Source: Ceratodon purpureus
Taxonomy: Eukaryota > Streptophyta > Bryopsida > Pseudoditrichales > Ditrichaceae
DNA: 64,000 nucleotides
Assembly: GCA_014871385.1 (NCBI GenBank)
Contig: CM026426.1
Coordinates: 70,227,287 to 70,291,286 of the forward strand
Reading direction: 5' to 3'
The notes under the pieces are model-generated. The model was not told where the DNA came from. It saw only the letters and a program-made list of their open reading frames with translations, and ran no database searches. Positions within the stretch are counted from its first letter, which is position 1, and each line of letters starts with the position of its first letter. Both the position numbers and the translations under genes were made by a program. Below, piece after piece: positions 6,715 to 29,250 of the stretch.

Positions 6715-8270
6715 TTAATTTCAAACCATGTGGTTCTTGCTGCACACACCAAGACAGTACCAGATCTGTACTACCGTAGGGGTGATAAGTAGAGTGGTGA
6801 TCTAGGGTATGTGAGGAGCAGATCTGACATTTACAATGACGAGATTTGTGCCAATGAAGGTTGTAGTGACGAGATCTTCGACAGTGACAATTACAGTGAC
6901 CAGATCTGTGACAGTGAAAGCCAGAGTGATTAGATTTGTGACAGTGAAAGTTATAGTGACTAGATCTGCAAACAGTTGCACTTTCAAGGCAGTAATGGGT
7001 TGCGACGCATTAGTAACGGCTACACCAGTGCAGTCAAGACTAGTTATTGTTTACCACTGATTTGAGGTTGCATTGTAAGGAACAGTAGGCGGAATGTTTG
7101 ACTAGCAGTAAAAATGGAAGAGTCAGTAAAAAATTTGTAGATCTACTGTCTAGATGAATGTATTAACAGGAAAAATAACGCAGTAAAATAATTGAGGAAA
7201 AAACCAAGCAGTAAAAAATTACGGTAAATAAGGGGTAGTGAAAACAAACTCAGGGACTAAACGGAAGAAAAGGAACCTAGGGACTAGTGATAGGAGTCTG
7301 GAAAGGAAAGTGGTCCAGTAAATCACTAGATCTTGGTAAAACAATAAAACCTGGACCAAGAGAGTGTAAAACAGGATTGGATTCACTGAAAAACTAAACA
7401 AGCAGGACTGGAGGGACCAGGACAGTCCTCTAGGAACAGACTATAAGACTGTATTGCTTGAAATCTGGTAGAATTCTAGACTAAGGACGAATTTGACAAC
7501 CTACAGGCAGTTAGGACCAACCTAAGTAGGAGCAGTAGCTACTAACAGATCCACAAAGGACCAGACTAAGGTGGCAGATGGATGTACTGACAGGGACCAG
7601 GAGTACGAAGGACTAGCACGTAGTGACAAGAGAAGGACCGGGACAGAGATCCAGAGTACCTACCCAAGAGATCACCTGGAGAGGCAGACTTGACTTACTC
7701 GAGAAGCAGATCAGAAGACCACTAGGCGGAAACATGGGAGGGCAACCCAACTCTGAGGAGAGCATTGCCAAAGGAAAGACCAGGGACTTGATTGACATGG
7801 ACCTGGTGGGTGAGAATTCAAGCCATGAGACACTCTTTGGAGTAAGCAGGAGGATAGAATCGGCTATGGGTTAACTTGGTCCCAGTTTCAAGAAATGGCA
7901 GGAGGATGATGAAATTAGGAGGGATGATGGCTCACTGCCATCACCAAGGACCAGTAAAAGAGAGTTTTCAAGACCAGGACGTGGAGACACTCAGCATAAC
8001 TGGAATCCTCAATTGGAGACAACAATGGCATACGACCAGTTTCAAGAGGGGGAGAGGAGAAGCAGCAGCCGACCTAATACACCTAGACTAGGAGTAAAGA
8101 CACTAGGAGACTTGGTGGAGACTATGGAGACACTAAAGAAGAGACTAGACCAAGGCAGGAATGAAGACAAGACCTCAAGAGAAGCAGTACCCACTTTAGA
8201 CCCGACCAAGACCAGCAGGTAGGGACAACAAACCACCAGGAGGCAAATAGTATAATTCGCCGAGGACTAG
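6715..8270 (+). other. Leader of outer element, no intact gene
   Basis: About 1.5 kb between primer site and the recognisable gag coiled coil. Holds a 30-bp minisatellite (6841-6960), then sequence rich in GACCAG/GACTAG. Plus-strand open stretches at 7623-7874 and 7876-8222 in changing frames may be the decayed N-terminus of gag. Confidence 0.5.
6841..6960. repeat. 30-bp minisatellite, four units
   Basis: Four consecutive 30-bp units, each ending AGTGA(C/T) and beginning (G/C/T)AGAT(T/C)T, with a partial unit on each side. As 30 is a multiple of three the stretch stays open in several frames without being a gene. Confidence 0.8.
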
Positions 8271-11106: not shown

Positions 11107-11193
11107 GACTGGGGTAGCTTGTACGTGAGCGGGAGACATGAGCGGAGAGCAGAGAGCGGAGATTTGGAGAGCAGAGAGCAGAAAATGGGAGCC
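11107..11193 (+). repeat. Left terminal inverted repeat of element A
   Basis: GACTGGGGTAGCTTGTACGT followed by GAGCGGG, GAGCGGA, GAGCAGA, GAGCGGA and two more GAGCAGA heptamers. The partner is 21346-21403; a more distant relative is at 29367-29414. Confidence 0.65.
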
Positions 11194-12685: not shown

Positions 12686-14110
12686 CTACTTCTTTGCCAA
12701 AGGGTGACGCAAGATTCCACTCTCTAGAACTAGCTTGACCTCGTTGAAGCTAAAGGTAGGGGCATGGATGAAAAGCTCGGCTTTGGGATCACGGCTGCAG
12801 ACCTTCAATAAGATGTAATATATGTGTTTGCAATAGGTGAACTGAATCTTGCATCGGAACTTAGTCATCGTCTTCCTGAATGTAGGGCAAATGCAACCAG
12901 GATAAGAGCTGATGGTGATCTGGTACTGTATGGTGTTAGGAGCAATGCCCGAATCGAGCCCAATGATGCAACCATGGCCCGGCTGAGGTATCATGGTGAC
13001 GGAACGGAGGCGCGCTTTGAGGGACTCGGAGGAGCCCATGGAGAGTCGTTGCGCCGGGTTGGGGCGAGTCGCAGTGCGTTTGACCATCTTACATTCTCTC
13101 CTACTAGGGTAGCGGTCAGCTTCTGCAGGAACAGGCACCGAACTAAGATTTGCAGGAGGCGGGGCAGACGAGAAGAGGCGTCTTGGGGAGACCAGCTTCT
13201 TCTGCGGAAGTTGAAACCCTGCTGCTTTGAGGGCAAGAATCTCAGTGAGTTTCAGGTTAGTACCTAGTTTCACTGGCGAGACCTCTGGAATCGAGGGCAC
13301 TTCCTAGTCCTTCGAGTAGTGTGCTACCCATTTGCGCCTAGTGCCTTTCACGCAGCGCTCAATATTATCGGAGCAGAAGAAGAACTCTGTCCCCTCAGAT
13401 GTGTTCCTGCAAATGTTAGTCTAAATCCTAGGGTGGGTCGGTGCAGCAGTGCAATTTTGCCCCCTGACAATTCTCTCAGTGCACTTCTTTTTGGTAACAG
13501 CTCTTTGGGCCCAGCAGCACTTTGCAAAAGCTTTGTGAAGTCTCAAAATGTGCCACTCCTTCACATCGACCTTGGTTTCTTCAACCGCGTTGACATGGCG
13601 AATGCCTGCTTTGTTCACAGGTGATAGTAGGGGGGAATCAACTTCCTGGGCAGGAGATTGGTTACCTTCTACCTTGGTTTCATGTTCGGAGTCGTCTTCC
13701 ACAATGATTGGCATCTGCACAGGGCGAGCCCTGACGGCACGTCGTGAGCCTCTCGGGCGAGCGAAGTTTACCTTGTCCGGGCGATGAGACTCCTCCTCAG
13801 CTCCGATGGGTACGTCTCCTTTTTGCTTCTGTGAACCAAACACTTCTGCTCCAGGCATGATTGGCTGACGGGTGCAGAACTCTTCCGCTCTTGGCATGTC
13901 GAGCATGGGATCTTCGAGCAGTGTAGGATTTCTTGTGAGTTTTGTCCTGCGTTCCGCCATCCTCAGCTTCAGTTCCTTCTTCGATGGTCCTGTTGCGCCG
14001 ACGTGACCTTTGAGGAACTGGTAGTAGTTAACAACCTGTAGAAATGCCCGAACGAAATCGTCTACTGTGGCAACGTAGAGGTCGTTATTATGGAGAGACA
14101 CAAGACGCAA
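12686..14110 (-). pseudogene. Transposase C-terminal part with SWIM-type zinc motif
   Basis: Two minus-strand open stretches (14110-13421 and 13300-12686) lie in one frame, separated by two in-frame TAG codons. The start resembles the C-terminal part of the element B protein: LYVATVDDFVRAFLQ here, MYVASVDDFVQAFMQ at 28710; RPDKVNF against RPDKIKV; HVNAVEE against HVTAVEE. Further on is FFFCSDNIERCVKG, then CICPTF followed by YCKHIYYILLKV, a C-x-C...C-x-H pattern as in SWIM fingers of Mutator-like transposases, and APTFSFNEVKLVLESG near the end. The sequence stops matching abruptly at about 14112, just before the plus-strand gene at 14115, so the 5' part is lost. SWIM fingers bind DNA or protein. 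Confidence 0.65.
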
Positions 14111-14114
14111 AATT

Positions 14115-15104
14115 ATGGAGGCGGGCGAAGGTGGGGAGGCTATGGCTGCAAGACGGGCAGGGCGAGGGGACGCGGGAAGTCCTTCTTAGAAGAGTGTGGA
14201 GGAGGACCAATCGCAGGATAGTATGGGGGGCCCCGTAGACGACCACGAATGTGAAGAAGATGAGTTTGCGGATAGAGGCCGCAGTCGAGGGAGAGGAGGA
14301 GGTGCTCGTGGGAGAGGACGAGGTGGTTGTGGGAGGAGTACTGGTGAGGCAACATCTGTACTCGCATCCGCGGCACCGGAGGAGGAGGCGAGTGGTGGGA
14401 GTATGGAGGCGGAGCGAGAAGTAGAGCATGGCAAGGAAGAGATGGAGAGCGCAGGAGGCGAATCGGATCAAGCTGGGGCAACAGAGGAGGTAGGGAATGC
14501 GATTTTTGTTGATGAGGATTTGTGGTTGGCCGCGAGGTTGGAAGTGCGGGATGCTAAGTTAGCAGCAGATAGATCCGCGAGGCATGAGGTTGAAGGGGCG
14601 AAGCAACCTACTGCTACTGCCGCGAATCGTGAGGTGGGGGATGCAAACCTAGCATCAGCCATGGCCGCGAGGTGTGAGGTTGAAGGAGCGAAGCAACCTA
14701 CTGCCACTGCCGCGAATCGTGAGGTAGATGGTGATATTTATGTAACAGCCCGGGCCGCAAGGATTGAGATTCAGGTTTCAAAGGTTGCAGCAGCCATGGC
14801 CGCGTGGAGTGAGGTGTGGAGTGCGGAGCTTACTGCATCCACCGTCGCGAGGTATGGGAAGGAGATGGCGATGGTTGCAGCAGCCATAGCCGCGGGGGAG
14901 ATGGCCCTTCCTCATAGGCTTTCGGAGCCGACACCCACTCAAGAGGAGGGGTCGGATGTGGGGGGAGGCGACATGGAGGAGATGGCGAAGGTTGCAGCAG
15001 CCATGGCCGCGGGGGAGGAGGCCCTTCCCAATAGGCATTCGGAGCCGACACTCCTCCAAGAGGAGGGGGCGGATGTCGGGGGAGATGAGTTGTTTGATGT
15101 TTGA
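14115..15104 (+). CDS. Gly/Arg-rich acidic protein with internal repeats
   Basis: The frame opens with MEAGEGGEAMAARRAGRG, has one TAG at 14187, and then stays open to 15104. It contains an RGG-like tract (GRSRGRGGGARGRGRGG), acidic stretches, and Ala/Glu-rich repeats: a 90-bp unit (GAKQPTATAANREV, twice, from about 14600) and a 117-bp unit (KVAAAMAAGE, from about 14870 and 14990), all in frame. RGG tracts commonly bind RNA. A GT donor-like site and a short downstream open segment (to about 15238) suggest further exons. It runs head-to-head with the transposase relic at 14110. The function is unknown; the single TAG may make this copy inactive. Confidence 0.5.
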
Positions 15105-15917: not shown

Positions 15918-18900
15918 GGAACTCAAACACATGATCCGTTGCCAACGCCATCTTGTCCTACTAATTTGACGAATGCAGTAGACAATGAATTGGTACATCG
16001 GAAACAGCACAAAGTGGACTCCATAGGCGTCATCAACAACCTCCAAATTCTCCCAAAGAGAAAGTCCCAAATCCTAGTTCCCCTGTGCAGGATGCTCTCA
16101 ATGGCAAAAGCGAGACCTCTAGGAGAAATGGGAGTTCAACATTTGAAGCAAGAGTTTGTCAAAGGCTACAGAGATGGAGACCGGGTCATGTACATTTCCA
16201 TGTACAACCACAAAGAGAAGACAGCCGATGTCACTAAGGAGATCAAGGCTGACTAGAGCCCTTGTTGGCTAAAAGCAAATGATGCTTTTGAAGATGAGCT
16301 TCTGGCCGACTGAGATTGGAAGGAGTTCTCTAGGAAGATGTTCTATGTCTGGGAAGGTAACCATTGCCTCGCCGCATGGTTCAGACATATCAACAATCAT
16401 CATAGCGAAGATCTAGCGTGGTACATCTCCGTGCACTGTATTGTTCTTGACCCACGCGGTCATGTGGGAAACCTTCTTCATGCCATGCACGACATCAACT
16501 GGTACGAATTTACTCCCTCTTTTTTGTCCACACTTCTTGCAAGCTGCTTGAACTTGTACTTTATGCATTTTATTAACTACCGTCTATTCGTACAGGTCTA
16601 CAGAAAATGATCACGTGAAGAATAATCTTCCGGCAAAACTTTTTTGTATTCGCTCCTTTGGTGTGATGAAATTGGAGGAATTCAAGGATCTACTCACACC
16701 ATAGAAGTATCAATTATCTTTGACTCACAAACCAGCTATTCCTCGATGGTTTACCTTGCCAACCAAAGTCTTCATCGCGTTTCTTTATTGTGTAAGCACT
16801 TGTTCCGCCCTCCCTCATGCTTCCATTCGACAATTGAATTGCGTAGGTTTGCAAACTCACAAAATAATAACTTTGTTTCACAGCGAGAAATCGTGGTTGC
16901 TTCTGACGAAGCTGCAAGGATGTACAAGGAGAAAACACCCACTGAAGAGCAAACTGCGACTGGTGTTTTGGATGCCATGACTACGGCTTCAAACAACATG
17001 GTCGATACCATTAAGAAGAAGGACTTCAGGAAGTACTTGGCTATTGCCAATCCCAAAAACGGTGATGACTTCCTTGCGAAGGTGAGTTGGTTAACATTTC
17101 TTCTTTGGTTGATTCACAAGTATTGCAATTTCAAACAATTCATCTAATTCTGTATGTGATGTTCCATTCCCGGATCAATCGGCATTACAGTGATTTTGCC
17201 AAATCGGAGATGATAGTGGAGAAGCTTTAGAAGATTGTTCCTGTAGCTGTGGATGCCAAATTCAAAGCGCGTTGGCAGAGGTGGAGGAACTCTTCACCTA
17301 GTTCACGACTTTCTTACAAATTTCTGCCGCCAGAATTTAAAGAGGCTGAACTCGACCCTTGGTTGAACAAGACAACATTTTGGGCTAGGGTACGTCACCT
17401 TTGAACTTATCAGTGAACACTATATGTACTCTTTCTTTGTGCATATCTTTTTGGACCTTAACAACTTTACTTTTGTGTTGTAGCTAGAGGAAGCTGTTAC
17501 CCGTGAGTTTGAAGACATCTGTAAGACCGAGAACCTTGTCATCAAGTGGAAGTCTTTCCCGGGAGTGCTGCGGCCCGACGCATATGTAGAGAGTTGGCGT
17601 ATTCTCCTATGGAAGAAGGCATTCCCTACATTTCTTGGTACCCGCGCAGATAAGGCTTTTGATAAGAAGTCTGATTTTTCTAAATTTTCGGGAGCTGCAG
17701 ATGTTGTCAAGCGTGTGACATACCGGTATGATTATTATGATTTACGTCTTTGTATTCCATTTACTTCTTCCTTTCATTCAACATAACGAGTACAATTTTG
17801 ATCTATGGCAGTTGAACTTGATTAGGTATTTCAAGAGAGAGCTGCTTGAAAAAGGTGCAATTGACCTTGAGAAGCTCCCAAAGCACTTCGCTGCGTGGAT
17901 TCAAAAAGGCTCTGACCAGTGTATTTATACTCCTCAGCAGTTGAAGAAGTTCAAGCCTCAGCACCTGGACGCTGGTTGCTAGTATCTAGATTGCATTTGT
18001 GGTTTCGTTATTGAGTCTGAAGCCGAGGTTAAATCTCAACTTGATGGAGGATCGGCAACTGTCGAGGATTTAGGGGATAGTTCAGATGAAGCCGAAGGCC
18101 TGCAGGATCAATCATTAGCGTCTCCACCAAAGAGAGGGAGAGGGCGGCGACTGCGACCTCTGGGTTCAAAGACCCAGGGCTCACAGGATACTGGTGCGGA
18201 GTCTTCCGCACCGGGGAAGGGGGCAGCCGTGACGTCTCCATCTTAAATCGTTTAAAAGCCTTCTCCAACTTCTACGACAGCGCCTTCGTCGATCAGTGCA
18301 TCGGCTATCACCAGAGGTCTGATTGAGCAGAGGAAGGCCAGACTGTTCCTGCCAACCACCTCTTCCGCTGGAACTCCGCATTCCACACATGTTTCGGTCA
18401 TCAACTCATCTGTGGATTCGTTATTGGTTTGAAATAAGAAGCTCTTTGACAAGGGTGGCAATCTAGAATGGAACAAGACTCTAGACTTCATTTGCAAGGT
18501 ATGACCCGTTGCTTAGACATTTCTTAGATACATACAGTTCTATTAATTTTATATAGTCTAACTCTGCTTTCTTGTTTCCTCAAGTTTGGAGCAGGCCGCT
18601 AGAACCAAGTTCCAGAACGGTGCTAGGTTGAGAAGCATTTGGGAGTTGACTTGATCATTGCCGACATCCCTGAAAATCTACCCGTCCCTTTGGTATCCGA
18701 TCCCCCCAACGTCATTCCACCTTGGAACTCTCGGGATGAGGAGTATGTGCAGAACATTGTTTGACTTTGCAAAACTTTACTTGCAGAATGATGGTGCTCT
18801 CTGCATCATCTACAACAATGATCAAAGGTTGGCTACGGAGATTCTCGAAGAAGCTAAGGCTAATCGCTTCGTGCTTTACAAGGATTGGTGGGGCATCAAT

Positions 18901-19940
18901 TCACTCGGCCTGACTTCTCCTACGAACCCCGAGAACTTGGTAATTTCATCGTAACCAGTCCTTGTCTTTACTTAGTGATACCCTTTTTGCTTATTTACAC
19001 TCGCATGTTTTGCTTGACTGCAGACTATTTGGTTTTGGACTCGCGTCTTCGTTCGTGGTGGCGAGCCGCCATCAAATTTCTCCTTCCAAACGAAGAAATC
19101 TGAGATGATACATGCCGACCTCAACATTACCGAGAGTGATGCCGTGTTCAACCTCACCAATGTGAATTCGCAGCTCAAGAATGAGGAGGTTCCGTGGAGA
19201 GGACCAAGGGAGAAATCCCCAGTGATGATGCAGGCCATTATTGGGGAGCTGTCCAAGCCCAGCGACATAGTCCTCGACTGGAAGGCAGGAACAGGTAACC
19301 ACTACCTACATGATTCTGCATTTCCATTCCTCTACTTTTTTCCACAGACTCTCACTTCTTCTCTACACTTTGATTTTCAAGGGCCTCAATCAAGGCATGC
19401 GAGGATATTGGTCATCATATTATAGCTTTTGAGGATGACGAAGCCATATTCAACGCCGTTCTCAAGTCGTATATGGCTGCAAAATCTCCCATGGGCCCCC
19501 CTAAACATCCTAGGCCGGCAGCAGCTGAGGAAGCACCACCCAAGAAAGCAAGATCGTCTAAGTACTGTAAGTCTTACTCTACATTTTCTAACTTTTGTGC
19601 TATTTATCTTAGCATTGCTTATGATTGCAACTCTATCTACTCAATCTAACCACTATCCATTTTATATTGCAGAGTAGTTGCGGCAACACCGCGACGTAGG
19701 CCGGGACCCGTTTCCATTCCATCGTGGCGTCTGAATTCCAGTCCGATTCAACCTTATATACTTCCGGAGTATGTTGAGGACTTAGCTCAAGCACTTCAAT
19801 CTGGTGGCGTTAGATATGTTCCTAGTCGACCTACTAGTTGTGACCCTAGGGCCCTTTCATTCATCGATCTAGAGGCTGTAGAAGGTGATTCAGAGTCATC
19901 GAGTTCTGAAAGTGGAAGTAGCGAATATAGCATACCGTGA
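15918..19940 (+). pseudogene. Multi-exon ParB-like / N4-N6 DNA methyltransferase-like gene
   Basis: Ten exons with GT-AG borders: about 15918-16501, 16596-16791, 16884-17081, 17191-17389, 17484-17725, 17812-18498, 18585-18939, 19024-19294, 19382-19566, 19675-19940. Exon 1 has FYVWEGNHCLAAWFRHIN, like the GxxRLxA core of ParB/sulfiredoxin folds. Exon 7 has DLIIADIPENLP and SDPPNVIPPW at the place of motif IV (D/N-P-P-Y), then the LYKDWWGIN strand. Exon 8 has EKSPVMMQAIIGELSKPSD then VLDWKAGTG, matching the KP...GD-VLDPFAGTG block (motifs X and I), and exon 9 has HHIIAFEDDEAI (motif II). Motif IV before motif I is the beta-class order. The middle exons are helical and unassigned; the tail is Ser/Glu-rich. 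Stops (for example 16256, exons 2, 4, 6 and 7), a frameshift near 18760 and changed catalytic residues (DPPN; DWK for DPF) suggest loss of activity in this copy. ParB-methylase fusions are known in phages and bacteria. Confidence 0.62.
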
Positions 19941-21345
19941 GTTTAAAGGAGGCTTCGGTCTACCGTTGTTTTCATCTGATTTGATTTGATTTTATTGGAG
20001 TTGATTACATATTCCTTCATCTTATCTTTTGCAAACCACTTAACGTTTTTTTTTAATTTAAATTTCCATTTTATATTCGTGTATGTAAAGGACTACACCT
20101 AAGAGACTTCTGGGCTTTCAATTCTTATGAGTTTAAACAACATCAAACATGTGATATGTATTCGGTTGAATTTTTTAAGAACCTAGGTTGATGTTTATGG
20201 TCTGCTTATGAAGGAAATACAGAACAAGGGCCAACGTAATTTTGAAAATATTGATTTCAGAATTACGTCCTTATGGAGCCCATATAAGGAAAAACCACTT
20301 CAATTATGAAGTTGTTTCTTTTAGATAATTATAGCCAGAACACCAGAAAACAATCACGTGAACATTGAATTGTTACAACTGAAATATTCAAAATATATAG
20401 AAAACTATAATTACTTTCTTTATCAATCAACAACATTTCTCATTATTATACCCATGTTATCTATTCTAGGGAGAGATCCAAATACCATCTCTCGGAGAAA
20501 TTTTCTCTCCTTCCTGCACATCCAAGACCTGATTCCCATTGGCCCTTAGCAATGACCTCAACTGATCTAACTCAAGCCAACTCAGTTCTCTAAGGGACGT
20601 TGTCTCTAACCTGTTGTCGTTAATTGGATTTGCAACTGTCGGAGGAGTCCAACCCTGCGTCGTACTACTACCTATATGATCCCAAGGGTCAGGCCCATCC
20701 GCCATCCGCTTAAGCAAATCGTGCAAAATTGTTTCACAACCAACGACCTCAAATGAATCGCCCAAACCTTCAAACAACTGCCTAGCAAGTACAAGGTTAA
20801 GTTCTACACAAATAATTGATCTTATACAACGCAAGGACGTCTGGTAAGGTTTATATAGATCGTTGCTTGACGCTTAAGCTAGCAGTGCTCTTATCTAAAG
20901 ACGGATAAATCTAAGATGAAGACAAGCACTCTAACATAGTATACATCTTGGTTTCCGCAGCTCCGTTATTGTGCACGAACTCTGAAATATTCCACGAAGT
21001 TTTCAGACCTTTAATTTTACTTTTTGTGAAATTGGTTTTTACACCAATTATTTATATAATCCTATGCAATTTTTACTGTTGTGATCTAAAAACATGATGC
21101 TGGAATACTCGTATCTAGATCCAACAAGGGACCAAACCTAAAGGATTGTATGCATGACGTCATCCTGACATCAGCCCTAATTTGTACCTCAAAAAACAAA
21201 CGTAAGAAATTTTTACCAGTAATAACCTAGAATTCCACGGAATTACACTCCGTTACTAAAAATAATAATAAAATAATGCCTTTTATGGTATTTTTCCACG
21301 GTTATAGGGTCTACTTTACTTTTGAAAATTTGGCTAAAAGTCAAT
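19941..21345. other. 3' flank of methyltransferase-like gene, mostly noncoding
   Basis: AT-rich sequence to the right terminus of element A. Apart from a minus-strand frame at 20466-20834 (listed separately) I see no gene. Confidence 0.5.
20466..20834 (-). CDS. Hypothetical ORF, 122 codons
   Basis: An open minus-strand frame with balanced, protein-like composition: LARQLFEGLGDSFEVVGCE, then PPTVANPINDNRLETT and LRELSWLELDQLRSLLRANG. It has no signal peptide, membrane segment or known motif. It lies between the 3' end of the methyltransferase-like gene and the right terminus of element A, on the opposite strand. It could be the last surviving exon of another cargo gene. Codon-rich, non-repetitive content favours real coding origin, but no partner exon was found. 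Confidence 0.35.
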   Translation of the reverse strand: MRCIRSIICVELNLVLARQLFEGLGDSFEVVGCETILHDLLKRMADGPDPWDHIGSSTTQGWTPPTVANPINDNRLETTSLRELSWLELDQLRSLLRANGNQVLDVQEGEKISPRDGIWISP

Positions 21346-21403
21346 TATCTGCTCTCTGCTCTCCGCTCTCCGCTCTCCGCTCACATGCTAACTTTCCCCA
21401 GCC
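21346..21403 (-). repeat. Right terminal inverted repeat of element A
   Basis: On the minus strand it reads GGCTGGGGAAAGTTAGCATG then three GAGCGGA and two GAGCAGA heptamers, in the same order as the left end at 11107. Confidence 0.65.
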
Positions 21404-21479: not shown

Positions 21480-24400
21480 AGGTGATTTCAAAGCCAACCA
21501 ATGCAGCAAACTCATGCATTTACAATGTCCACATTGAGGTCGCACAGAATCAGTACGCTCAAAAGTCAAGTGGGATACAACAAGTAATTTGACTTGAGTG
21601 ATTATTCAATTATTGCCTTCAAAATATGTTTACAAACGTACACAATCAGAAGTAATGCACACAATGGACATTCTGCAGTTTGAGTTCAAAGCTTTGAAAG
21701 CCTCTTATCAAAATTATGATGTCAAACAACAAATCTACATGCAAAATCAAGAGCCAACTGAAACCGAAGAAGTATAAGCCAAAGAATTTGTGCGCCATGG
21801 ACCAAGGTCATGACCATCTATATCCTTAATGATATTCAAACTTGTGAACTTGATCGGTGAAAGCAGCTCTAAATTGAAAACCCAAATTGACCTCTAATTC
21901 ATTCAGCAAACACAACCATGACATGGCCTCATCAATGATCATGATAGCATCATCAAGGTCCAAGCATATGCAGACGTCAGCAAAAAGAATCAAAAGTACA
22001 GAGCCATAGCTTTGAAACTTAATTTAGCTACATACCTTCAAAATGAAGGATTTCAGGTTGTCAAATTCTGGTGCAAAATTTTGTGCGTCACCACCTAAGA
22101 CATCATCAAGCGAAAGGTTGACAATCAATTCATCAACAATACTGTCCTCATCATCCGCAAGTTCTATTACAGGAACTTGTGTCAGGACCTTGTATGATGA
22201 ACCCCATTTGGTCCCTTGAGTGGAGAAGGTATGCGCTTGAAATCCAGAATCAAATGTCGAGCTCTGAGCTGCTAGGCCTTTTTTCTACTTTCTCCCGTGG
22301 CGTGCTTTTCTTTTTTCTGTTTCTTCAAAGTCTTCTTCAAAGCTTTCTGTTTCCTTTCAAGCTCCTTTTGCACAACATTCTCCTCTGCATCCTTTATTTT
22401 TTAGCCTTTTATTGATTTTCTTTTACACAAGGATAGAGAAAACACTTAGAAAGCATACACTTGTTTATGTCATGCATGACTTGCATGACAACTCCAAGTT
22501 TGGCCTTTGTCTCCAAGAAAATAGAATCAACGACGTAGTGTCATGTTGCATGTTTCTTGTGAAGGCGCTCAATGTGGTTCATCCAGACTTGCCTTCTCTG
22601 GTTTTTATTGCATACTAGGAACGTGACATTAGTAAGATTGGCTAACTCTGGAATATACTAAAGATACTTATTGAACTCTTCATTGACTTTAATTCCACAT
22701 ATCACCTCAAATTTCTTTTAATGCATTAGTGACAAACATATTTTTTCCCTCTTCATTAATTGTTGTCACGAAGAACATAGACGCCCCTCCTCAGTAACCA
22801 TGTATAAATCCTTGTTCGAGTTTGGAAAGGTCACTTTGCAATTTGGGTCAGACCATGGACTTAGCCAAAAGTCTACACAGTGGCATGTTAAACCACGATC
22901 AACTATGGGGCTGCCTCCTTAGAGCCGATATGGTTGCAACGGGATTCAACTTTTGCTTTGTTCGCAACTCGTCCACATCTCCTTCAAAGTGGTCATCATC
23001 TTCTTCCCCATTGTTGCCCCCATCTTTACCAGAGCCCATCTCATTTGCTTCTATCTCAGATGCCTTAGTACTCCCTAACGAGTCAGCCCCAGAGCGCAAT
23101 CATTTCTTCGTTTGCATGAACCGAGAGTCATTCAGAGGCAATCATCAATTCGCTGCTATTACAAGCACGAGCTCGACACAGCCAACATTCAGCCTAACAA
23201 ATTCAGAATCAAAATGATAATCTAAAAGCTAGTATAAAGAATGTAGATGTACATGCTCTAATTTCCTAAAGCCTACCCCTTCTGAACATACAAACCAAAA
23301 TTTAGACACACATACTCAATACATTTGGTCCCATCAGCTGCCTATAAGCCATCAAAAAGATCAAAATAAAAAGAAAGCACTGGTCATTAGTTATGAAAAT
23401 CATGTGTAATAAAAGCCATGCTTGGGCGCGACACAACCAAGGACGATGATAAAGCAATACTTTTTAGTCAAGCAGAATCAAAATCAACTTGAGATCCCCT
23501 AAGCTATATCACTTGTGTTGCGGCTGACACATGCCCCTGAAGCTCCAAAAGCTACTTCTATCCTTCCAAATTTTACCTCACTTCAACATATAGTCCAAAA
23601 TTCAGACACACATACTCAAGCCATTTGGTCCCATGTGCTGCTCATAGGCCTTCAAAAACATCAAAATAAAAAGAAAGTAGTGGTCATTAATTATGAAAAT
23701 CATGTGTGTTAAAAGTCATGCTCGGACCCGACACAACTATAGATGCTGATAGAGCATTAGCCATGTGTCAAGCAAAACCAAAAATAAACTTAGTTAGGTC
23801 CTATGTGTTGGGGCGGACACATGCCTCAGAGCCCTTAAGAGTTGCTACTATCTTCCCGAGCATACCTTTCTAATCCAACCCTTTGAGCGCTGCGTCTATC
23901 CTCCCTTCTAGACTCCCGAGCAGCATCCAAAGGCAAAATTAGCCTATTCTAGAAGCATGACAGCCACCTAGGTATTTGGCACCGGTTCTATAGACCTAAA
24001 CACTCATATCCAACATTTGGCACACAATCTATACAAATCTGTTACATGCATTACAATGCTTCCCCCAACAAATATTGCATTCAGTCCGGAAAATCAATTA
24101 GTGAAATCAAACCTAATCAGAGACATTTTCCTCGACTGCTTGCGCGGCTTTGCTCTTGGTTGGAGCAACTTTGTCCATGTTCTTGTCAACCTCCTCCATC
24201 TAGGTTTGCTGAAATGGAAATGCTCAGGTTAGTTTAGAGTACAAACAAAACTCGTCAAGCAATACGGAGACTGAAATCCACATACTGTGTCATTTGCTCC
24301 GAACTAGACGAACCAGACCGTGGACTCAGCAGCGCCTGTCCCTTAATGATGCAACCCTAGAGCAAACTTCCGTTTGCACTTATAAGACACTGAAGGTGAC

Positions 24401-26568: not shown

Positions 26569-29250
26569 GTGAGGAGTCACTGTATGCAAAGGAAAGAAGT
26601 TTTTGACAATGTAATAGGTAGTGTCACTCATGCTGTTGGCATGACACCAAGTATTAACAATCTTGGGTCATTCCGGTTGCTGAAATCTTCGGAAAGTACC
26701 TCCTTGTATGGAGTTTTTGAGTCTGTCCCAGCTGGATCAATTGAACCTCTCACCCCTCGTATGTCCTCTATAGTTAGTTTAGAAGCTTCTAGTGCTTTCC
26801 AAGGTCAAAATCAAGCGAGGCTTAGAAACCATCTACGAGTTGAGTGATGACTCTAATAGGAAAGACGTTGAGGGCACTTTGCCAATGCTAGAAAGTATTG
26901 AAAAGACACTGTCACATATAGGGATATATGTGAGGATCCGGTTCTTTCCATGAAGTCTCTGCTCCTTCTAATCCTCTAGCAAGTCCTCTAGGGAGCAGCG
27001 TCCAATGTTTGATGAAGCTTAGCATTTGTAAAAGATCTAGGAGTGATATCTCTCACATTGATTTCAATGCGATCAAAATGCAGCACGTTCGGTATCTTCC
27101 ACCTCGTTACAACAGCGATATCAATTTTGAGTTTCCACCTTTAGGAGATCACGGCCAACACTCTATTCCAAAGCAATTACGTGGAATGGATAGAAGATAT
27201 GATGGCCACGCCTGGACTCAAATCATGGCCTCTAATATCCACAACTATTTAAAGCTGACATTCTGGACTTCATCGTGCCCAGGCCACCTCCAATGTAATA
27301 ATGTAGACTGTGATAATTTAAAACGTGACCACGGGACTAGAGTAGTGATCAAGACGAAGTGGGATGGTTGTCTGAGAAGTTGTTTGAGGTTGGGTACAGT
27401 CCTCTAGCAAGTACTAGAGTTGCCTGTAAATTTTGTAATCCTCCACCAATGTGCATTTGGCTTTATCCCGCAAAGATATACTACGTGACCTCAACACCAC
27501 AAATGATACGAGTTTGCGTCCAATCAAAAACTCATGAGAATTATGTGAAATCTGTAAAACATGGACGTAATTGATAAGATAGAGGCATTGATTAGTGAGC
27601 AGGTGGAGCAAACATCGTCACCAAATTGGTCTTCTATTGTCTTGGAGATGGAGATAGTGAAGGAACTATTGGGACCGCTTCTTCTGACCAAAGAAAGTGA
27701 AGTAGAGATATTGTTGCTGGAACCAATATTTGAATGTTGTGAGCATCTAACATCACCGAACATTAGAAACTGTATTACAACTTTCACGAGTATTCAAGGC
27801 CTTGGGAATATAGTCAGCATTACTATGCTATGGGGCTTTAGCAATTGGAGTCTAGTGCAAAATACCATGTTTTCACAAGAAGGATAGAACGTAGACAAGG
27901 TCTTCGTCTTCAAAATGTTTGAAGTAGGCTCAGGGAGCGGCGTGGATCTGGTAAAGCAAATGCAGACTGGTGGTGACTTGGAGAACGCGTGGATGATTTT
28001 TGACCACGTCAAATGTGTTAGGTTGTGGATGACGATGGCCTGTCACGTGTATGATTCCACATATTGCCGAGTCATCACGATCGCAGCATGCAATATGCAG
28101 CTGGAGAACACGACAGCTTAGTTGGTGGTGTCGAAGAATCTAAATGCCATTATGGCAAAGCACGGGGTTGAGAATGTGAATTTGAAGGGATTCATGGCTA
28201 ATCGGAATGCGCCAAGCTAATTGGAATGTGGTACGCATCATATATGAAAGCGGAGATGCATTTGAGAAGAGTTCAACAAAGTAAGGACTTGTATTTTCCA
28301 TTGGATCCAATCCATGGATAGGCAAGAATGTACAAGAATGTAGTACAAGAATGTCAAGTCAATGGCACAAGAAGAAACGAAGTTCCTGGCAATTTGAGCG
28401 TGGTGGATGTCATTAGGCGATGCGACAGAGCAAAGACTACCTTGACCTGAACTGTGCTTGGTCTTGTGGCACTTTCGATATTGCCAATGAGGAGGCTTCA
28501 TGGATATGGTAAACTCATACTCATTCTTTGAGCTACTGTAGCATTACATCTTGGCCAACAGTTGCTTATTCAACATTAAACTAACTATCCTACCTCCAAT
28601 GTTTCTACAATCACAACGAAGACAAACTTGTAGAGATGCCATCATGCAACCTTGCAGAATCAACTCATGACAAGTGGAAGCAACACTCTCGAGATCAGGG
28701 TAGCAACATGTATGTAGCATCCGTGGACGACTTCGTGCAAGCGTTTATGCAATATGTTGGGTACTTCCAGTTCTTGAAAGGCGAGCGTCTTGGAAACGGT
28801 CCATCAAACGAGGAGCTGAATCTGAGACACGCAAAAAGACCTGCAGCCAATACAGGAGACCCGAAATCACTACACGAAGCGATTCTGAAGATGCCCGGCG
28901 CCAATGAGTGGTTCAACAATGATCCGCATCTCAAAGGAGAAGAGGTATTTGTTTCTTTAAAACGCAAACTTGATGCTGCTTTTAGAGATGAGCATGAGTT
29001 ACAGAGGCCGGATAAAATCAAAGTGTCAAGTCCTTGTGTCCAGACTTGATCTGCACGTAGATAGAGCAAGAATTCTGCAATAGTGGTGATAGTCGACTCT
29101 CCTACAACTAGCAAACAGGATAAACCTGACCTTTCCCCTCAACAATCTCCGCCGCAAGTGGATCGCCACCACGTCACTGCTGTTGAGGAGAGTGCCTGCA
29201 ATCCCTCTAAGTGGCACATTGCACGTCTCCCAAAGAGAGTGCCTTACTGA
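26569..29250 (+). pseudogene. Mutator-like transposase core, element B
   Basis: Ordered segments: 26569-26847 (weak); 27009-27407 with FEFPPLGDHGQHSIPKQLRG and the Cys/His motif CPGHLQCNNVDCDNLKRDH; a frameshift, then 27380-27574 with ACKFCNPPPMCIW; 27561-28119 with ALISEQVEQT, LTSPNIRNCITTF and CHVYDSTYCRVITIAACNMQ, which looks like the first catalytic Asp strand of the DDE fold; 28125-28330 with KGFMANRNAPS then QANWNVVRIIYESGD across a shift, where the second Asp strand is expected; 28636-29049 with NLAESTHDKW and VDDFVQAFMQ; and 29100-29230 ending HVTAVEESACNPSKWHIARL. It lacks the SWIM tail seen at 12686, ending next to the terminus at 29367. Stops (27885, 28119) and frameshifts make it inactive. 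Mutator-like by fold order, not by search. Confidence 0.6.

Follow-up and report, generated by a model that had tools for sequence, protein, structure and literature searches.

A Large Mutator-like Transposon Family of the Moss Ceratodon purpureus Carries a Methyltransferase-like Gene and a Dispersed, Family-Specific Palindrome

The window analyzed here, a stretch of 64,000 nucleotides from contig CM026426.1 of the moss Ceratodon purpureus, contains a diverged, dead copy of a large autonomous DNA transposon. The intact relatives of this copy encode a transposase and a second, intron-rich gene for a protein with a C-terminal amino-methyltransferase fold, and their noncoding DNA is crowded with a short palindrome. 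Our best reading, which we hold tentatively, is that the protein may be a self-targeting methyltransferase-like factor that would be guided by the palindrome to mark or shield the element that carries it. Bacterial-type DNA amino-methyltransferases are rare in eukaryotes. The literature searched, which does not include the Ceratodon genome paper, yielded no plant transposon that combines a methyltransferase of this type with family-specific palindromes dispersed through the element. Transposons bearing TET/JBP, SET, or VANC proteins are already known (cited sections of PMC12730594), as are host genes for amino-methyltransferases in rotifers and Marchantia (cited sections of PMC8885841).

The intact relatives were found by a profile search of the genome with PF01555 (N6_N4_Mtase), which returned at least 32 matches (its counts are lower bounds), 28 of them consisting of a stop-free last-exon frame of 149–166 residues. 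Ten copies were examined together with their surroundings. They were picked from the best methyltransferase matches, and the set is therefore biased toward intact, methyltransferase-bearing copies. The 5′ end of the element, GAGGGAGGCTATGACATGAGC, is present in all ten copies, with one mismatch in copy C9, and the flanks are unrelated. Twenty bases of this end occur at 97 genomic sites with at most two mismatches, compared with 2 for the reversed control; these are end sites rather than counted full elements. The two copies in which both ends were read measure 26,787 and 26,804 bp by their coordinates and are bordered by target duplications of 9 bp and 9–10 bp. The element ends read GAGGG..CCCC, and the repeat of the terminal inverted repeats (TIRs) is GAGCGGTGAGCG. 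The TIRs of copy C1a are imperfect, with agreement at 38 of the first 43 positions. A break in the similarity between copies C12 and C3a at 24.2 kb was considered as a right end without a TIR, and this candidate was overturned by the TIR and duplication evidence. The TIRs and target duplications of the relatives also bear out the proposal, made from the sequence of the window alone, that the gene is carried by a DNA transposon.

The transposase is encoded on the minus strand. It has a D..D..E arrangement with C-x2-H between the last two residues (by eye), a zinc finger that resembles WRKY/GCM (judged by eye and from weak fold hits), and a SWIM-like end for which the Pfam SWIM profile gave an expectation value (E) of 0.6, below the cutoff. 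Target duplications of the Mutator superfamily are 8–11 bp in length (cited sections of PMC6446971), and the 9–10 bp duplications seen in both copies fit this range. The transposase is of the Mutator-like DDE type, with the MULE transposase profile matching neither the C1a protein nor its nine relatives. Nine transposase relatives share 45–50% identity over half of the query. A structural model of the transposase has a mean predicted local distance difference test score (pLDDT) of 54.8. A Foldseek search with this model yielded nothing at E ≤ 0.001; its top-ranked hit, a DIX domain (E 0.07), is unrelated, and WRKY chains (E 0.5–1.7) and ISCth4 (E 2.1–2.4) came next. In-frame stops are absent from the methyltransferase exons of seven of the ten copies, from the transposase exons of five, and from both in four. 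The check for frameshifts covered the methyltransferase gene of C1a. Two smaller genes were also observed: a frame of ~90 residues with a likely membrane helix (by eye), which lies between the transposase and methyltransferase genes of C1a (~6,897–7,172, +), and, in C12, a right-arm gene that is coiled-coil/RING-like (~22,211–23,469, –). Neither had a Pfam match over the cutoff.

The methyltransferase gene lies on the plus strand and has seven exons, which are open throughout and encode 1,080 residues in C1a. With the identity of the head set aside, the protein is composed of a DGNHR/ParB-like head, a family-specific middle region, and a C-terminal amino-methyltransferase fold of the beta class. 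PF01555 matched all five of the aligned members (alignment A2) at E ≤ 10, with a best value of 1.9e-8; the match to the related protein P0001 is over the cutoff and spans positions 2–217 of 221 in order. The C1a exons matched the same profile with E 2.4e-7 and the phage methyltransferase family PHROG 67 with E 2.6e-9. When the family profile was compared with solved structures, DpnA was matched with E 9e-6 and CcrM, over nearly the whole domain, with E 4.4e-5. Motif IV precedes motif I both in alignment A2 and in the profile match of P0001, and this is the order of the beta class. The sequence-only reading had placed the window gene in the N6/N4 family with beta order and had staked the claim on significant N6_N4_Mtase matches in intact homologues; these were found, and the claim survives.

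The usual catalytic motifs of N6/N4 amino-methyltransferases are [DNS]PP[YFW] and FxGxG. In the ten copies, P0001, and a second related protein, P0002, motif IV is D-Q-P-F, D-T-P-F, or D-Q-P-Y, and motif I is D-[LV]-[SAN]-A-S-T-G; the window has DIPE as motif IV. The forms SPPY, DPPY, NPPY, and DPPW of motif IV appear in the cited sections of PMC8885841.

In the head, G-N-H is invariant (alignment A3) with a ParB-like spacing by eye. Searches of Pfam, PHROGs, NCBIfam, and the PDB sequences with exon 1 revealed no match to ParB; the weak, chance-level matches were to DndB (E 0.011, one of six members) and E2F_TDP (E 0.062, two of six). Of the earlier description of a ParB-like head, the motif GNHCLAAW is present at 16,356–16,379 of the window, and the ParB domain finds no profile support. 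The accompanying suggestion that a ready-made prokaryotic ParB–methylase fusion had been captured was not upheld: among 50,697 phage records the sole match of exon 1 (E 6) was in a glycosyltransferase. The middle region gave no convincing match, and the AlphaFold model of P0001 (pLDDT 35.7) supports no claim. Protein searches returned no relatives outside Ceratodon (two proteins, both from Ceratodon, in one search and one protein in another), nor did viral contigs. This result does not imply absence, because intron-rich genes escape notice in protein sets of this sort owing to a length filter and to the splitting of exons.

Three further loci were observed in the genome. L001 (G000:C8:9594172-9597936), which encodes P0002 (KC19_7G101700), is a compact paralogue with DQPY as motif IV and is possibly a domesticated or separate copy. 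At G000:C1:5958254-5958736 and G000:C5:15306119-15306592, long open frames of 567 and 569 residues match PF01555 positions 29–190 and 29–187, are unlike the transposon copies, and are possibly separate host amino-methyltransferase genes.

The repeated palindrome, GTTCGGTGCCGAAC, was first spotted in the introns of C1a. In a scan of all 4,096 palindromes with six-base half-sites, the same family (TTCGGTACCGAA, TTCTGTACAGAA) ranked at the top in five of six relatives, and in the sixth, C10, it ranked below AT repeats only. For the ten elements, a count on both strands gave 135 exact sites of TTCKGYRCMGAA, all of them in noncoding element DNA (121,509 bp); the exons (74,203 bp) and the flanks (14,296 bp) have none. 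Exons here are those of the transposase and methyltransferase, and the smaller genes are counted as noncoding. First-order shuffles of the ten elements together gave an expectation of 0.1 for the same sequence. The copies fall into about four groups, each with its own mix of core variants; between groups, long DNA alignments fall mostly within the transposase gene and the exons of the methyltransferase. Genome-wide, GTTCKGTGCCGAAC was found at 441 sites, compared with 6 for the reversed control. Among the 100 sites listed (contigs C1, C2, and part of C3), 90 lie downstream of an element 5′ end at a distance of at most 25 kb; such regions account for 0.87% of the sequence concerned. Of the other 10, 8 are within 51 kb and 2 are elsewhere. 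Because of these genome-wide counts and the closeness to element ends, the palindrome is almost exclusive to these elements. Its sites use both strands of the DNA, as seen in the core types and in the right arm, and in the transposase intron of C1a the palindromes form 42-bp tandem repeats.

Selection on the methyltransferase gene was measured as the ratio of replacement to silent substitution rates (dN/dS). For exons 1–6, 25 of the 27 defined values fall between 0 and 0.24; the remaining two, 0.28 and 0.41, both come from the C12–C3a pair. Exon 7 gave 0.14–0.63. Between C1a and C3b, 3–9% of the silent sites and 0–1% of the replacement sites of exons 1–6 differ. For many distant pairs, silent sites are saturated and no ratio is obtained. 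Counted against purifying selection are exon 2 of C12–C3a, with replacement changes and zero silent changes, the transposase of the same pair (dN/dS 0.48–0.79), and the small membrane-protein frame, whose ratio reaches 0.87. The gene as a whole is under purifying selection and is kept for its protein; therefore, the element needs the protein. The silent divergence (dS) values also indicate modular exchange among C1a, C4, and C6b (L027/L028, L039/L040, L033/L034): the closest similarity of C4 is to C1a in the transposase gene and in exons 1 and 4 of the methyltransferase gene, but to C6b in exons 5–6 of the latter.

According to our best reading, the protein would recognize TTCKGYRCMGAA scattered through the noncoding DNA of its own element and would act at these palindromes, most likely by methylating adenine or cytosine at their amino groups, within the sites or close to them. 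The methylation may mark or shield the DNA of the element against host silencing, and the protein would then be a functional counterpart of VANC in the VANDAL elements of Arabidopsis. It is possible, though doubtful, that this plant transposon has a modification system of its own, in which the amino-methyltransferase would deposit N6-methyladenine (6mA) or N4-methylcytosine (4mC) at the palindromes as a private mark that permits escape from silencing by 5-methylcytosine, with the protein and the site variants coevolving between subfamilies.

Several observations weigh against a palindrome-guided methyltransferase. With one mismatch allowed, a one-strand pattern gave 209 noncoding sites together with one exonic and one flanking site. 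The flanks are short (14.3 kb), the copies were drawn from the best matches, and, because these copies are related to one another, the 135 sites are not independent events. No exact palindrome is present in the window copy, which fits either old age or a different site in the subfamily of the window, and none is present in the 3.8 kb covered of the compact paralogue L001. The transposase could be the protein that binds the palindrome. Finally, motif I and motif IV, with Q or T at the second position of the latter, depart from the usual FxGxG and DPPY. Because these departures are common to the whole family, catalysis appears likely but is not assured.

The family-wide departures in motifs I and IV would also suit a protein that has the fold without the catalysis, namely, a sequence-specific DNA- or chromatin-binding anti-silencing protein that recruits or blocks host factors at the palindromes, and VANC itself acts without a known enzyme fold in the cited sections of PMC5735166. 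However, all ten copies as well as P0001 and P0002 retain the D, P, and F/Y of motif IV and the final G of motif I, residues that an inert fold would have no need to conserve; we consider such a protein somewhat unlikely. The location of palindromes in the C1a transposase intron and in the right arm is compatible with a role in transposition, in which the protein would be a cofactor and the palindromes would be transposase sites or points at which the transposition complex assembles. This explanation is unlikely, given that the palindromes are not clustered at the ends but occur in introns across a span of about 20 kb and that the TIRs carry a different repeat. One could also argue that the palindrome, which sits in introns and spacers and whose link to the protein comes from our interpretation, has a regulatory or RNA-level role (promoter, splicing, or small RNA) that does not involve the methyltransferase-like protein, but the use of both strands and the near privacy of the palindrome to the elements make this quite improbable. 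That the methyltransferase is a captured passenger gene without function is hardly credible: although Mutator-like elements tend to acquire fragments of host genes (cited sections of PMC6446971), the dN/dS values speak against it, as does the presence of the methyltransferase exons in all ten copies, which were, however, picked by their methyltransferase match.

The copy in the window is a remnant of the same kind of element (Table 1). The sequence-only reading had described a methyltransferase gene at 15.9–19.9 kb. An exon–intron gene is indeed recognizable at about 15,996–19,566 (+), now as a pseudogene: it is dead, because it has 11 in-frame stops (16254, 16311, 16702, 17228, 17980, 18244, 18253, 18430, 18600, 18624, and 18762), a frame change in exon 7, and acceptors of exon 4 and of the exon 8/9 join that look damaged by eye. 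Exon 1 shares 42% identity over 172 residues with its counterpart, also exon 1, in an intact relative (tblastn E 1.5e-38). Exons 8–9 score 30.4 bits against PF01555, for which the curated cutoff is 26.7, and they carry motifs I and II as had been recognized, with KPSDIVLDWKAGTG at 19,255–19,294 and FEDD in the next exon. The DPPN of exon 7 (18,699–18,710), proposed earlier as motif IV, has to be replaced: the family alignment puts motif IV at the preceding DLIIADIPE, with DIPE twelve residues earlier, in line with DLIIIDTPF, DLVIIDQPF, and DLIILDQPY of the relatives.

Table 1. Positions of the transposon remnants within the 64,000-nucleotide window
Feature	Position	Strand	Evidence
Probable left TIR of the window element, GGGGTAGCTTGTACGTGAGCGG...	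11111..11190	+	Aligned with right end of intact relatives
Transposase remnant, second half (exon 2 start to SWIM-like end), two frames, 13424-14185 and 12689-13303	12689..14185	-	tblastn matches with each of the ten relatives; 46% and 37% identical to P0003, a transposase relative
Methyltransferase pseudogene, exons 1-6	15996-16501, 16596-16791, 16884-17081, 17174-17389, 17484-17725, 17826-18498	+	Homologous to exons of intact relatives; eight in-frame stops
DGNHR-type motif of the head, FYVWEGNHCLAAW	16341..16379	+	G-N-H invariant in alignment A3
Exon 7 with motif IV (DIPE at 18663-18674)	18585..18938	+	Three stops and frame change
Exons 8-9 (19024-19294, 19381-19566) with motif I (DWKAGTG) and motif II (FEDD at 19428)	19024..19566	+	PF01555 E 4.9e-7, over cutoff
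Probable right TIR of the window element	21344..21399	-	Aligned with right end of intact relatives
Another transposase remnant of this kind, separate and oppositely oriented	26934..29046	+	tblastn matches with each of the ten relatives; over 147 aligned positions, 54% identical to P0007

The element in the window extends beyond the gene to the transposase remnants and to TIR-like ends at about 11,111 and 21,399. The arms at 11139-11162 and 21360-21383 are 96% complementary, and 19 of the first 40 positions of the two ends are equal without gaps. No matching target duplication was found, and the 9 bp that flank the left end differ from those at the right end. No DNA match to the ten relatives was obtained at E 1e-10. 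Between the transposase and methyltransferase remnants, at 14,190–15,104 (+), is a frame of 304 residues, Arg-Gly- and repeat-rich, which had no tblastn counterpart among the ten relatives. Broken frames at ~31.4–37.2, 44.1–47.0, and 62.3–62.9 kb have the look, by eye, of plant long terminal repeat retroelement proteins.

A whole-genome search placed the window on contig C6, which at 110.5 Mb of the 362.5-Mb assembly is nearly 4 times as long as the next longest contig among those listed. The U and V chromosomes of Ceratodon are each >100 Mb in a genome of ~360 Mb (cited sections of PMC8000587), and from its size C6 is probably a sex chromosome.

It is useful to compare the moss element with systems that share some of its properties. 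Lanisha transposons reportedly come from Ceratodon, and they resemble the element in being a DNA transposon lineage named by Ceratodon workers. They were reported by Maumus, McDaniel, and Carey as EnSpm-like, in a group with mostly CA..TG ends and duplications of 2–5 bp (cited sections of PMC12730594). The moss element has GAGGG/GGGG ends, duplications of 9–10 bp, and C-x2-H between the second D and the E; identity with Lanisha is disfavored by the ends and the duplication length. The DNA transposons of fungi and oomycetes that carry TET/JBP or SET proteins are similar in that they bear enzymes that modify epigenetic marks, but these enzymes are dioxygenases or histone methyltransferases rather than DNA amino-methyltransferases (cited sections of PMC12730594). 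CcrM and DpnA (6pbd, 5hek) share PF01555 and the order of motif IV before motif I, whereas the moss protein has a long additional N-terminal head and middle region, altered motifs I and IV, introns, and a transposon as its carrier. Rotifer N4CMT and the 4mC enzyme of Marchantia are likewise bacterial-type amino-methyltransferases in eukaryotes, one of them a bryophyte. In the cited sections of PMC8885841 these are host genes, and motif IV of N4CMT is SPPY, in contrast to the transposon-borne D-Q/T-P-F/Y of the moss protein.

The closest likeness is to the VANDAL elements of Arabidopsis. VANC21 of VANDAL21 binds a short motif and causes the loss of DNA methylation where this motif is crowded, namely, in the introns, the intergenic DNA, and the noncoding termini of its own family; the motif variants and tandem repeats change between related VANDAL families (cited sections of PMC5735166). 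The moss elements likewise combine a DNA transposon and an accessory protein with a short, family-specific motif that is crowded in noncoding DNA, occurs in tandem repeats, and has family variants. VANC proteins have DUF1985/DUF287, with no enzyme fold named in the cited sections, whereas the moss element of 26.8 kb has TIRs, a palindromic motif, and an amino-methyltransferase fold; five proteins of the moss family had no Pfam match to DUF1985 or DUF287. The dispersed palindromes make the proposed marking or anti-silencing directly testable, and base-by-base prediction of the sites turns the presence of 6mA or 4mC at defined positions in a land plant into a yes-or-no question. The protein could become a sequence-guided tool for plant epigenomes. 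If our best reading is true, the moss element would represent a second, independent sequence-guided system beside VANC, and one with an enzyme fold.

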